Part shown: positions 3,578 through 20,787 of the stretch, one piece after another
Layout: the number at the start of each line of letters is the position of its first letter
Numbering within the stretch: position 1 is the first letter of the stretch
From: Pseudomonas sp. ML96
GTDB lineage: Bacteria > Pseudomonadota > Gammaproteobacteria > Pseudomonadales > Pseudomonadaceae
DNA: 64,000 nucleotides
NCBI RefSeq assembly: GCF_000761545.1
Contig: NZ_JPMY01000037.1
Location: forward strand, 62,001 to 126,000
Direction: 5' to 3'
The notes under the pieces: generated by a model
What the model was told of the DNA's origin: nothing
The model's database searches: none
The model's input: the letters and a program-made list of their open reading frames with translations, nothing else
Position numbers and translations under genes: made by a program

Positions 3578-4891
3578 ATGAAAACCCCGCTCTGGTTCCC
3601 GCAAAGCTTCTTCGCCCGCACCCTGTGGCTGGTGCTCATCGTCGTGCTGTTCTCCAAGGCGCTGACCCTGGTGTACCTGATGATGAACGAGGACATGCTG
3701 GTCGACCGCCAGTACAGCCACGGCGCGGCGCTGACCCTGCGCGCCTACTGGGCGGCGGAGCCGGAGGACCGCGACCATATCGCCGAGGCCGCGACCCTGA
3801 CCCGCGTGGCGCAGGACAAGGTGCCGGCCACCGAGCAGCACTGGCCGTACTCCGAGGTGTTCCTGCGGCAGATGCAGGCCGAGCTGGGCCCGGACACCGA
3901 GGTGCGCGTACGCGTGCAGAGCCCGCCGGCGTTGTGGGTGCGTGCGCCGAGCCTGGGGCCGGACTGGCTCAAGGTGCCGCTGTACCCCTATCCGCTGCGT
4001 GGGCAGAAGATCTGGAGCGTGCTCGGCTGGTTCCTCGGCATCGGCCTGCTGTCCACTGCGGCGGCGTGGATCTTCGTGCGCCAGCTCAACGCACCGCTCA
4101 AGCGCCTGGTGTTCGCCGCCCGCCAGTTCGGTCAGGGGCGCAGCGTGCGCCTGCCGATCAGCGATACGCCGAGCGAGATGACCGAGGTCTATCGCGCGTT
4201 CAACCAGATGGCCGAGAACATCGAGGGTGGCGCGCGCGAGCGCGAGCTGATGCTGGCCGGGGTGTCGCATGACCTGCGCACGCCGCTGACGCGCCTGCGC
4301 TTGTCGCTGGAGCTGATGAGCAGCGACGCCGAGCTGACCGAGGACATGATTCGCGACGTCGAGGACATGAACGCCATCCTCGACCAGTTCCTCGCCTTTA
4401 TCCGCGACGGCCGCGACGAGAAACCGGAGATCTTCGACCTTGGCGACCTGGTGCGCGAGGTGGTCGCGCCCTACAACCAGCAGAGCGAGCAGGTGCGCCT
4501 GTGTCTGGAGCAGCTGCCGCTGTTCCCGCTGCGCCGGGTCTCGATCAAGCGCCTGCTGGTCAACCTGCTGGAGAACGCTCTGCGCTACGGCGGCCAGGGC
4601 GTCGAGGTGGTCACCAGCCTGGCCGGCGACGAGAGCGCGCCCTACGTGGTGCTCAGCGTGCTCGACCGCGGTCCGGGCGTGGCGCCGGAGGAGATGGGCG
4701 AGATCTTCAATCCCTTCATCCGCGGCGACCGTGCCCGTGGCGGCAAGGGCACCGGCCTGGGCCTGGCCATCGTCAAGCGCATCGCCTCGCTGCACGGGGG
4801 CAGCGTGGAGCTGCGCAACCGCTCCGGTGGTGGCCTGGAAGCGCGTATCTGCCTGCCCCTGGGTCTGCTGCTGCCGCGCGACGCCAGCTAA
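3578..4891 (+). CDS. amgS: Sensor histidine kinase AmgS (EnvZ family)
   Basis: 437-residue inner-membrane kinase. The N-terminal membrane segment (LWLVLIVVLFSKALTLVYL) is followed by a periplasmic domain to about residue 145. A second membrane helix comes next (VLGWFLGIGLLSTAAAWIFV), then HAMP. The dimerisation helix carries the phosphorylated His near residue 231 (SHDLRTPLTRLRLS). The ATP-binding domain has N box (LLVNLLENALRYGG), G1 (LDRGPGVAPEE) and G2 (GTGLGLAIVKR). It is the cognate partner of AmgR. In P. aeruginosa AmgRS controls proteases and chaperones that protect the inner membrane. All catalytic boxes are intact. The same-strand GGDEF/EAL gene begins 73 bases downstream. Confidence 0.92.
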   Translation: MKTPLWFPQSFFARTLWLVLIVVLFSKALTLVYLMMNEDMLVDRQYSHGAALTLRAYWAAEPEDRDHIAEAATLTRVAQDKVPATEQHWPYSEVFLRQMQAELGPDTEVRVRVQSPPALWVRAPSLGPDWLKVPLYPYPLRGQKIWSVLGWFLGIGLLSTAAAWIFVRQLNAPLKRLVFAARQFGQGRSVRLPISDTPSEMTEVYRAFNQMAENIEGGARERELMLAGVSHDLRTPLTRLRLSLELMSSDAELTEDMIRDVEDMNAILDQFLAFIRDGRDEKPEIFDLGDLVREVVAPYNQQSEQVRLCLEQLPLFPLRRVSIKRLLVNLLENALRYGGQGVEVVTSLAGDESAPYVVLSVLDRGPGVAPEEMGEIFNPFIRGDRARGGKGTGLGLAIVKRIASLHGGSVELRNRSGGGLEARICLPLGLLLPRDAS

Positions 4892-17418: not shown

Positions 17419-18558
17419 TCAGACCTCGATCCGGTTCATGTAGGCGCTGAAGCCCTGCAGGTAGCGCGGGATCGGCATGAGGAAGGCGTCGTGACCCTGC
17501 GGCGCGTCGATCTCCAGGTAACAGACGTTCTTCTTCGCCGCCAGCAGGGCATCGACGATCTCCCGCGAGCGCGCCGGCGAGAAGCGCCAGTCGGTGGTGA
17601 AGGACATCAGGCAGAAGTCGGCGCGGGCCACGCTCAGGGTCCTGGCCAGGTCGCCGTCATGGGCGGCGGCCGGGTCGAAGTAGTCGAGCGCCTTGGTCAT
17701 CAGCAGGTAGGTGTTGGCATCGAAGCGCCCGGAGAACTCCTCGCCCTGGTAGCGCAGGTAGCTCTCGACCTGAAATTCCACGCTGTGGAAGTCGTAGTTG
17801 AGCTTGTCGGTCTTCAGCTCACGGCCGAATTTCTCGCCCATGGCGTCGTCCGACAGGTAGGTGATGTGGCCGACCATGCGCGCCAGCATCAGGCCGCGCT
17901 TGGGGATCACACCCTGGTCCTGGAAGTGCCCGCCGTGGAACTCCGGATCGGTGAGGATGGCCTGGCGCGCGACTTCGTTGAAGGCGATGTTCTGCGCCGA
18001 CAGCTTGGGCGCCGAAGCGATGCACAGGCAGTGGCGCACGCGCTCGGGGTAGCTGATGGTCCACTGCAGGGCCTGCATGCCGCCGAGACTGCCGCCGATG
18101 GTCGCGGCCCACTGGTGGATGCCGAGTTGGTCGGCCAGGCGCGCCTGGCTGTTGACCCAGTCTTCCACCGTCATCACCGGGAAGTCGGCGCCGTAGGGCT
18201 TGCCGTTGGCCGGGTTGAGGCTGGAGGGACCGGTGGAGCCGTTGCAGCCGCCGAGGTTGTTGAGGCTGACGACGAAGAACTTGTTGGTGTCGATCGGCTT
18301 GCCGGGGCCGATGCAGCTATCCCACCAGCCGGGCTTGCGCTCTTCGGCGCTGTGGAAGCCGGCGGCGTGGTGATGGCCGGAGAGCGCGTGGCAGATCAGC
18401 ACGGCGTTGCTGGCCGTGGCGTTGAGCGTGCCATAGGTCTCGTAGACCAGCTGGTAGTCGGCCAGGCTGCGGCCGCAGACCAGCGCCAGCGGCTCGCTGA
18501 AATGGGCGGTCTGGGGGGTGACCAGGCCGACGGAGTCTGCGGGGAAAACGGTCGGCAT
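17419..18558 (-). CDS. metX: MetX, homoserine O-acyltransferase
   Basis: 379-residue alpha/beta hydrolase from ATG at 18556-18558. The catalytic Ser is in IGGSLGGMQ (residue 157), with Asp in [10 protein letters not shown] and His in PQGHDAFLM. It activates homoserine for methionine synthesis. MetX proteins of P. aeruginosa and P. putida have been reported to use succinyl-CoA, although the family name says acetyltransferase, so I expect O-succinylhomoserine here. The frame is open another 60 bases upstream without a better start. It is the first gene of the metX-metW-DUF4426-rdgB-hemW run; the upstream spacer contains a hairpin and a palindromic element. Confidence 0.93.
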
Positions 18559-18600
18559 CGAGCCAGCTCTCGCTCCAGGAAAGTGCAGCAGTCTAAAGAG

Positions 18601-18632
18601 CACGGCCCCCGGCAGCAAGCGCGGGGGCCGTG
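18601..18632 (-). terminator. Hairpin after the dynamin-like gene, upstream of metX
   Basis: CACGGCCCCCG and CGGGGGCCGTG form a perfect 11-pair stem around a 10-base loop. On the minus strand it is followed by CTCTTTAG, a weak T tract. It may terminate transcripts from the dynamin-like gene before metX, or fold in the metX leader. Confidence 0.5.
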
Positions 18633-18658
18633 GCTAAGCCGCTGATTTGCCGGGGCTT

Positions 18659-18800
18659 AGAACCTGCCTGCGATCTCCTGGCTGTCGGCCATACGGCGTT
18701 AAAAACGGCCTCGGAATGCTCATGTACTACTCGTACACTCCGCTTCCTCGGCCGTTTTTGCCTTGTCTGGCTCTAATCCAGAAAATCGTAAGCAGGTTCT
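18659..18800. repeat. Nested palindromic MITE-like element, 142 bp
   Basis: The outer arms AGAACCTGC..CGAT (18659-18674) and ATCGtAaGCAGGTTCT (18785-18800) are inverted repeats. Inside, AAAAACGGCC (18701-18710) and GGCCGTTTTT (18750-18759) start a second inverted repeat that closes on GTAC/GTAC around a 5-base loop (18728-18732). If AACCTGC/GCAGGTT marks the ends, the element is flanked by TTAG and CTAG, both fitting the YTAR target of IS5-type transposases. Its right edge coincides with the TAG stop of the dynamin-like gene. It carries no coding capacity. I see one copy in the window; similar intergenic palindromes occur in other pseudomonads as far as I recall. Confidence 0.7.
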
Positions 18801-20787
18801 AGGCCGGGTCGGCAGCGCTCTGCGAACGGATCGCGGTGGGCAGGGTGACGACCTTGCCCTGGCGCTGGATCGGCGCCGGGCGGCGCAGAACGCGGAGCAT
18901 CTCGTTGGCCTGGGCCAGCTGGGTCTCCAGCTGGGCGGTATAGCCGGCTAGTTGCTGGCCGCGCTGGCGCGCCTGCTGAGTCTCCTGGGCCAGGGCCTTG
19001 AGGCGCAGCATATGGGTCTCGAGCATCTGCTTGTGTTCGAGGGTGTGCTGCATCAGCGGCATCAGCGCATCGTTGGCCCACTGCTCGGCCTCGCCGCGCA
19101 GGCGCTGGTGCAGGCCGAGCACTTCCTGCACCAGGGTGGCGAAGAAGCGTTTGGTCAGGCTGCGCTGCTCGGTGAGCAGGGTCTTGAGTTGCAGGCGGAA
19201 GCGGTCGGCTTTGCCGCGCAGCTGCTTGAGTTCGCGTTGGTAGCGCTGGCTGTTGAACTGTGGCGCGTCGACGCCGTGCAGCGGGTTGTCCTCGTTGTGC
19301 CGGCGGTAGATGGCGGCGACCATCTTGTTGGCCATCTCGGCCTCGTGGGCGAGGTTGCCGAGGTCGTTCTCCACGTTGCGGAAGAACTGCACGATGGCCT
19401 GGTTGATGCCCAGGGTCGTCCAGCTGCCGGCCAGGCCCTGACGTACCTGGGCCAGGTGCTGTTCCAGGCGCTCCGGGAGTACCGCTGCGCGCAGCAGGTC
19501 ACCCTGGCGGCGCAGCAGGCGCTGGTTGGTCTTCAGGCCGAGCAGGCGCTTGTGGTGCTGGCTGTGGTCTTCCTTGGTCTTGGCGGTCAGCTCGAACAGC
19601 AGCTGGCCATTGTCGCTCTGGTGGTTGTTGAGCAGCTCCTGCTGCTCGCGCACCTTGTCCAGGCGCAGGCTGAGCACGTGCTGGCTGTTGTTGAGCAGGG
19701 CCAGCACCTGGTTGACCACGCGCTCCTCGAGCAGGCGCTCCTTCTGCGCGACGATGCGCTCGCACAGCAGCTGCTCCAGGTTGGCCAGCTGGCTGCGCGC
19801 GAGCAGCTCCTCGTCCTTGCGCACCTTGGCGATCAGCGCCTGCTTGGCCGACAGCGGCAGCACGTTGCTGGCGGGGATGCCGAGTTGCTTGGCGGTGCTG
19901 TTCTGCACCAGGCCGATGGCCTTGTTGACGTATTCATCACCGGCCAGGTCGTCCCACAGCACGTCGATCTTGTTCAGTACGGCGAACAGGCTGGCCTGGG
20001 TGTCTTCGTCGAGCTGGCGGATGTGCTCCTTCCAGATCGTCATGTCGCTGGCGGTGACACCGGTGTCGGCGGCCAGCAGGAAGATGATCGCCTGGGCGCT
20101 GGGCAGCATCGACAGGGTCAGCTCCGGCTCGCTGCCGAGGGCGTTGAGGCCGGGGGTATCGAGAATGCGCAGGCCCTGGCGCAGCAGCGGGTGGTCGAAG
20201 TTGACCATGGCATGGCGCCAGGCCGGCACCAGCACCTGGCCGGGCTTGCCGGCCGGCTCCAGCATCTCGGGCAGGAAGCCGAGCTGGATCGCCTGCTCCA
20301 CTGCCATCGGCTTGGTCTTGGCCACCTGGGCGAAGGCCAGGGCCATGTTGTCCGGGTCGGTGGCGTCGAGAGGGATGTTCACCCAGTGCCGCGGGATACG
20401 CTTGAACTGCGCGACGCTGGCGTCGGCCATGCGCGTCTCGATCGGCAGCAGGCGGATGTAGGAGCGTTCCGAGCGCGGGTCGAAGAACAGTTCGGTGGGG
20501 CACATGGTGGTGCGCCCGGCGTGCGACGGCAGCATGCGCTGGCCGTATTCGGAGAAGAACAGGCTGTTGATCAGCTCGGTCTTGCCACGGGAGAACTCGC
20601 CGACGAAGGCCAGGGTGATGTGGTCGGTACGCAGGATGCGCAGGGCACGCTCCAGGCGCGCGTCCATGGCGTCCGAGCCGAGCCGGTTGTGCGCCAGCCA
20701 GCTGCGATAGCGCGTGATCTCGCGCATCAGCTCGCGTTTCCAGGCGACGTAGGCATCCACCTGCTGGCTGAGACGTTCCATGCTCAT
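18799..20787 (-). CDS. Dynamin-like large GTPase
   Basis: 662 residues. GTPase motifs are complete: P-loop GEFSRGKT (63-70), switch I Thr in GRTTMCPTEL, G3 DTPGLNALG (210-218) and G4 NKID (272-275). The rest is long helical (about 350-640) with coiled-coil character (LRGKADRFRLQLKTLLTEQR; LAQETQQARQRGQQLAG), as in bacterial dynamin-like proteins. No membrane helix is evident. Such proteins bind and remodel membranes or, like E. coli CrfC, affect chromosome partition. The stop TAG lies at the end of a palindromic element. In P. aeruginosa I do not recall this gene between metX and the DUF167 gene, so it may be a lineage-specific insertion. Start MSMERL or MERL; the function is not proven. Confidence 0.85.
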   Translation of the reverse strand: MSMERLSQQVDAYVAWKRELMREITRYRSWLAHNRLGSDAMDARLERALRILRTDHITLAFVGEFSRGKTELINSLFFSEYGQRMLPSHAGRTTMCPTELFFDPRSERSYIRLLPIETRMADASVAQFKRIPRHWVNIPLDATDPDNMALAFAQVAKTKPMAVEQAIQLGFLPEMLEPAGKPGQVLVPAWRHAMVNFDHPLLRQGLRILDTPGLNALGSEPELTLSMLPSAQAIIFLLAADTGVTASDMTIWKEHIRQLDEDTQASLFAVLNKIDVLWDDLAGDEYVNKAIGLVQNSTAKQLGIPASNVLPLSAKQALIAKVRKDEELLARSQLANLEQLLCERIVAQKERLLEERVVNQVLALLNNSQHVLSLRLDKVREQQELLNNHQSDNGQLLFELTAKTKEDHSQHHKRLLGLKTNQRLLRRQGDLLRAAVLPERLEQHLAQVRQGLAGSWTTLGINQAIVQFFRNVENDLGNLAHEAEMANKMVAAIYRRHNEDNPLHGVDAPQFNSQRYQRELKQLRGKADRFRLQLKTLLTEQRSLTKRFFATLVQEVLGLHQRLRGEAEQWANDALMPLMQHTLEHKQMLETHMLRLKALAQETQQARQRGQQLAGYTAQLETQLAQANEMLRVLRRPAPIQRQGKVVTLPTAIRSQSAADPA

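Follow-up and report, generated by a model that had tools for sequence, protein, structure and literature searches.

How did a long, nested palindrome come to lie at the stop codon of a dynamin-like gene in Pseudomonas sp. ML96, and what might it do there? The window (the whole stretch of 64,000 nucleotides that was analysed) carries this palindrome between two minus-strand genes, encoding a dynamin-like GTPase and MetX. We favour, with a probability of about 0.85, the reading that it is an IS5-family MITE inserted in the stop codon of the dynamin-like gene, that its relatives pile up at stop codons, that its hairpin probably serves as a terminator or mRNA 3′ end, and that the core of the family is kept while the ends are exchangeable. 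The features of the locus are as follows.

18660–18799, no strand assigned: complete MITE of 140 nt, delimited by the empty site in the relative G013 and by about 25 copies in its own genome
18660–18680, plus strand: left terminal inverted repeat GAACCTGCCTGCGATCTCCTG, based on own-genome matches of the consensus GAACCTGTTTACGATCTNCTG and equal to the ends of the IS in locus L215
18779–18799, minus strand: right terminal inverted repeat GAACCTGCTTACGATTTTCTG, based on the consensus repeat search and alignment of the ends
18658–18659, no strand assigned: left copy of the 2-bp target duplication TA, based on the empty site GGGGCTTAGGCAGGG
18800–18801, no strand assigned: right copy of the 2-bp target duplication TA, based on the empty-site comparison
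18701–18716, plus strand: left arm of the inner stem, AAAAACGGCCTCGGAA, whose pairs covary in the family
18744–18759, plus strand: right arm of the inner stem, TTCCTCGGCCGTTTTT, with A- and T-tracts that give a terminator-like shape on both strands
18716–18745, plus strand: conserved core ATGCTCATGTACTACTCGTACACTCCGCTT, containing the mismatched loop TGCTCA/CTSCGC
18799–20787, minus strand: dynamin-like GTPase gene, which ends in the element (Pfam Dynamin_N, 5.1e-13)
18799–18801, minus strand: TAG stop codon of the dynamin-like gene, with its third base from the element; TAA in the empty allele
17419–18618, minus strand: metX (homoserine O-succinyltransferase), downstream of the dynamin-like gene (NCBIfam NF047916, 3.7e-210, with the model match beginning at residue 29); its start is likely the ATG at 18558, as placed by reading the sequence and its frames

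The original prediction, made from the letters alone, described a nested palindrome of 142 nt at 18659–18800. The palindrome is indeed present, and has three levels: outer arms (18660–18684 with 18775–18799, complementary at 19 of 25 positions), an inner stem of 16 nt (18701–18716 with 18744–18759, 88%) and a short central stem. Its boundaries had to be moved, as the comparative limits are 18660–18799. The RNA fold of the 140-nt strand reaches −63 kcal/mol, whereas its shuffles average −33.6 (z −8.45), and the DNA fold of the element has a z of −7.02; among 200 dinucleotide-preserving shuffles, none was equally stable as RNA and none as DNA. A long RNA hairpin is therefore predicted for the transcribed element. 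The stretch TGCTCATTTAC may resemble boxA. The length leaves room for at most 46 codons, and besides the terminal inverted repeats the element shows the dispersed copies, target-site duplication and empty site in a relative that characterize a MITE. For the element, Rfam returned no family at gathering score. A weak Rfam match to sX9 was dropped as an identity, being absent from eight other element-bearing loci.

The evidence for mobility comes from copies and empty sites. The genome of the strain contains about 25 related copies, part of them partial, and the consensus repeat has 27 matches there at up to 3 mismatches, both ends of the window copy included, while a reversed-pattern control has none. 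More widely, the element finds matches at E ≤ 0.001 in 27 of the 57 genomes searched (its own included), many of them through the core only, and a collection scan for the element gave at least 117 stretches. The phage collection yielded no element match, and viral contigs gave 10 matching stretches. G013, the most similar of the relatives searched (97% identity over the 5′ part of metX), has an empty site, reading GGGGCTTAGGCAGGGTCGG where the window has GGGGCTTA, 140 nt and TAGGCCGGGTCGG; in the relatives other than G013, the gene adjoining metX is not alignable. Relative to G013, the TA is duplicated and the terminal G of the element changes the stop of the dynamin-like gene from TAA to TAG, so that, as predicted, the right end contributes to the TAG codon by supplying its last base. 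The end of the protein is unchanged, still ADPA. The claim of a MITE, which a sequence unique in the genome or the lack of any empty allele would have spoken against, is thus borne out by a multi-copy family and by the precisely unoccupied site in the most similar relative. A fixed, non-mobile ancestral hairpin that serves the metX region as a terminator or regulator could be imagined from the strong fold between two co-oriented genes, but this empty allele and the dispersed copies make it extremely improbable.

For the window copy taken alone, precise loss in G013 is a possible alternative; we infer that the empty site is the ancestral state. The joined flanks of 14 other own-genome copies were searched in five relatives. 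The copy L011 has a clear empty site in G013 and in another relative, G028, with duplication of TA and a change of TAA to TAG as at the window copy, and L005 (in G028) and L004 (in G013) have clear empty sites with TGA duplicated in both. The stops are intact at these clear cases. Less clean empty sites were seen for L007, L014 and L026; the joined flanks of L015 matched G013 and G028 in two pieces separated by about 95 bases, and L010 and L017 aligned poorly at the junction. The element is mobile. One further copy, L003, is counted below among the copies without a stop and was left out of the flank join because its boundary was mis-called.

These comparisons also define the target. Among copies with the same class of ends as the window copy (a/d-type), the 3-bp flanks are identical in 58 of 106, whereas 2000 shuffles gave 22.3 on average and never more than 36, and the target duplications of this family are TNA (3 bp) or TA (2 bp). 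The window copy has TA, not the commoner TNA. The original prediction had proposed a YTAR target on the strength of the flanking TTAG and CTAG. Those letters are present, but only TA is duplicated, the left G and the right C belonging to the element, and the a/d family shows no 4-bp YTAR duplication. YTAR-like flanks were found in another subfamily, c, which has ISPst12-type ends.

Smaller and denser relatives were also encountered. Some 1.6 kb from a full copy, at 3729–3816 of locus L059 (own genome, C22:15228–15315), lies an 88-nt element that has the same terminal repeats but lacks the conserved core. The genome of a Chitinimonas (G057; for example loci L089, L125 and L146) contains 220 terminal-repeat matches at up to 1 mismatch in 4.7 Mb, and its elements abut each other in places.

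Which transposase moves the element? A plasmid of Nitrosomonas stercoris contains an IS, annotated ISStma16, that starts and finishes with the window-type terminal repeat and is bordered left and right by TAA. This IS was found with a 37-nt consensus-end query through a 24-nt match with E = 1, one of 40 records listed; the match is weak alone, and the case depends on the repeat standing inverted at the two ends together with the flanking TAA, which is consistent with TNA. Outside its ends, the IS has only short BLAST matches of low significance to the MITE. It has two ORFs, one matching PF01609 and NCBIfam IS5_3 above cut-off (the catalytic half) and the other PF13340. The prediction of an IS5-like transposase thereby finds a concrete counterpart in a two-ORF IS5-family element with matching terminal repeats, and we infer that the acting transposase is of the kind annotated ISStma16 (IS5_3). 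In Chitinimonas, 1 of 14 PF13340 loci (L209) is a broken IS5_3 element with the ends of that genome's own d-type copies. The own draft genome (47 contigs) contains no transposase of the IS5_3 kind, with 0 matches to PF01609 and 0 to PF13340, and a relative of the transposase occurs in 1 of 298 genomes of the genus, as a fossil (L246) that retains a window-type repeat at its end. It follows that the family either persists after the loss of its transposase or is supplied with one only from time to time.

In the mechanism that we propose, an ISStma16-type (IS5_3) transposase would insert the non-autonomous IS5-family MITE at the TA of CTTAG, which at this locus lies within the TAA stop of the dynamin-like gene. 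The preferred TNA or TA target, itself a possible stop, is duplicated or rebuilt, TGA remaining TGA or TAA becoming TAG through the terminal G. Such insertions therefore leave the protein intact, which is presumably the reason why the survivors concentrate at stop codons. The transcribed element would then fold into a long hairpin, its inner stem flanked by A- and T-tracts, and in the interval from the dynamin-like gene to metX this hairpin probably acts as a terminator or a stable mRNA 3′ end.

The original prediction did not extend to the broad spread of the core, the variety of its arms or the accumulation at stop codons. The core, searched as the exact pattern ATGCTCATKTAC...GTAMACTSCGCTT with reversed-pattern controls that gave zero matches, has matches in 57 of 369 class-level genomes, which represent 48 of 272 genera, with up to 69 per genome, and in 14 of 299 phylum-level genomes. 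The arms around it, which are self-complementary, fell into 27 crude clusters among 175 elements, a clustering that splits some related arms. Five of the nine arm types tested match the ends of IS5-type elements or fragments: a and d match IS5_3 elements, c matches ISPst12, one type is shared with a Moraxella IS5_4 element, and the CAGGCTG type is shared with a Rhizobium element holding an IS5_4 fragment. The d-type match is an 84-aa fragment (58.4 vs 110 bits) and the CAGGCTG-type match a 155-aa fragment (109.5 vs 140 bits), both below the NCBIfam cut-off. For the other ISs, the short queries that pointed to them gave matches of little weight in isolation (E = 1, 0.1 and 0.5), strengthened only by a second inverted end beyond the transposase. 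Compared with four test elements, the matched ISs show significant BLAST matches confined to the ends. In the plasmids searched, no matching IS was seen for arm types b, GGGCACCTC, GGAGGCTGTCC and GAGCCTATTC; among PF01609 loci from 16 genomes (with matches in 9 of the 16), none was a resident IS with paired arms, and single partial ends only occurred, in 2 of 23 PF01609 loci. As a guess, the ends might be exchanged by template switching at the core palindrome beside an IS end. The description of the core was not found in the open-access literature searched.

Several copies differ at a point beside the inner stem. A similar extra stretch, beginning GACCAGCCGGAGGCTGTTACT, stands at the same point in L093, L157, L158 and L167, as if a second small repeat were nested in the element, and the own-genome copies L012, L015, L023 and L026 have a similar GC-rich insert, of the CCTAGGCGGCCCCGC type, beside the inner stem. 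Outside the class, a genome of about 2 Mb (G787; loci L357–L364) has 157 core-pattern matches, of which the 13 listed share identical core letters; the copies read carry GTAACTACTCAG-type arms, and perhaps represent a recent burst.

The core stems appear to be constrained. In 190 unique core windows, positions 7–11 of the inner stem are occupied by three to four Watson–Crick types and are 72–92% paired, at each position above the maximum of 300 shuffles, which ignore kinship through shared ancestry, and above every slid version, although the slid-column controls come close at some positions (79% vs 82% at position 9 and 88% vs 92% at position 11). Position 9 is CG, GC, AT and TA among 38 class-level windows. 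The TC/TC mismatch is retained on the left in 173 and on the right in 175 of the 190 windows, and in 28 and 26 of the 38 class-level ones, respectively. The TGCTCA/CTSCGC loop is not independent evidence, because it is part of the search pattern. Quasi-palindrome correction or template switching could keep the arms complementary and produce covariation without selection. A structured core that persists inside arms varying with the IS5-type element concerned suggests that the constraint acts on the core and that the ends are exchangeable.

ERIC and Correia/NEMIS are transcribed imperfect palindromes of about 100–150 nt, of other sequence and in other hosts. The window element is like them in size and palindromy, and the E. 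coli collection gave no match to it at E ≤ 0.001. The REP/REPIN sequences, abundant extragenic palindromes of gammaproteobacteria associated with RAYT transposases, have a GT(A/G)G head and a tyrosine transposase (PMC2817692), whereas the present element ends in GAACCTG, duplicates TNA or TA and has an IS5-type partner. Membership in REP/REPIN was rejected on the lack of the GT(A/G)G head. The nearest Pseudomonas element in kind that we found is MITEPsy1 of Pseudomonas syringae pv. phaseolicola, a 100-nt MITE whose 18-nt ends are close to the IS5-family ISPsy2 and whose transposition was shown (PMC3189936). Its well conserved copies are reported from only some P. syringae pathovars, with a suggestion by the authors that sequences like it could be widespread, and it duplicates CTAG or YTAA, unlike the TNA or TA found here (PMC3189936). 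QMITE1 of Coxiella burnetii is alike in its description, variable ends being reported together with a conserved core (PMC5896051).

The 201 core matches include 9 without an arm pair and 106 with a/d-type ends; 96 of these 106 were kept after removal of odd sizes, identical flanks and contig edges, and near-identical orthologues (e.g. L102/L104) remain among them. Open frames of at least 100 codons were considered. In 48 of the 96 copies, a long frame reading into the left end has its stop at the element (offset 0 or +1), and in 14 a frame reading into the right end does so; 3 copies are in both counts and 37 in neither. The stop-codon copies exclude nine cases in which an opposite-strand frame passes through the right end and terminates 27 nt into the element. 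The orientation is 45:11 for same versus opposite (binomial p = 5e-6), and in the own genome 12 of 18 copies are in the same orientation, 2 opposite and 4 neither. The window copy belongs to the minority orientation, as the dynamin-like gene reads into its right end. At offset 0, same-orientation stops occur in 44 of 96 copies against 0.36 per offset at 3–60 nt downstream, a ratio of about 122.

A selfish, neutral MITE, whose placement reflects the choice of TNA together with loss of harmful insertions and whose hairpin has no host function, would explain part of this pattern. Every TNA is a stop on one strand, making the stop the one coding site where insertion is harmless. TNA stands at 0.763 of stops against 0.0426 per base 3–60 nt downstream, an availability ratio of 17.9 (from 872 open frames of at least 300 codons in all fetched loci, both strands, overlaps kept). 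The opposite-orientation excess at offset 0 (7 vs 0.55 per offset, about 13-fold) does not surpass this availability, and 19 of 26 copies with d-type arms, many from Chitinimonas, lie away from long-frame stops. However, the same-orientation copies exceed availability about 7-fold, and the opposite orientation is itself somewhat above it when offset +1 is added (14, with a baseline that covers offset 0 only). The non-a/d arm types together lean likewise, with 26 same and 11 opposite of 83, against 3 and 3 in control windows 35–45 nt outside, and the core stems covary. We give this neutral account a little under even odds.

The orientation could also be made by the transposase, if an asymmetric target read TRA on the core strand and were automatically aligned with stops. 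Among copies at no long-frame stop, 17 of the 24 whose left flank is TNA have TAA or TGA there, a lean that hints at such an origin. On the other hand, there is little asymmetry between the outer ends, and even among arm types whose flanks differ, same-orientation copies are at least as frequent as opposite ones (c 6:3, b 7:6, which is even, and other 13:2), albeit in small numbers. We regard a purely transposase-made bias as plausible yet rather doubtful. We are similarly tentative, and would not bet on it, about the strongest functional proposal: that the core is a mobile 3′-end cassette, selected as RNA or single-stranded DNA, which repeatedly gains different IS5-type ends, settles mostly in one orientation at stops and ends the mRNA with the protein unaltered.

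Returning to the IS5-family MITE at the dynamin-like stop, we consider it most likely that the element is tolerated at gene 3′ ends, and that its transcribed hairpin probably functions as a terminator or mRNA 3′ end. The inner stem with its A- and T-tracts looks like a two-way terminator. A simple terminator scan reported nothing at the element, probably because its loop limit is 8. Whether the insertion really affects transcript ends at the dynamin-like/metX locus we rate as an even chance. If the core is selected, this mobile element would be one that swaps ends from transposase to transposase while keeping its payload, and a simple route to ready-made bacterial gene 3′ ends without damage. 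The family offers a way to test how MITEs persist beyond their transposases, and suggests that transposon insertions account for some of the gene-end hairpins in these genomes.

A separate GC-rich inverted repeat, CACGGCCCCC...GGGGGCCGTG, lies at 18601–18632, between the MITE and the likely start of metX. Because the empty allele of G013 (L217) has this repeat too, it is independent of the insertion; it may be an older terminator or leader hairpin.
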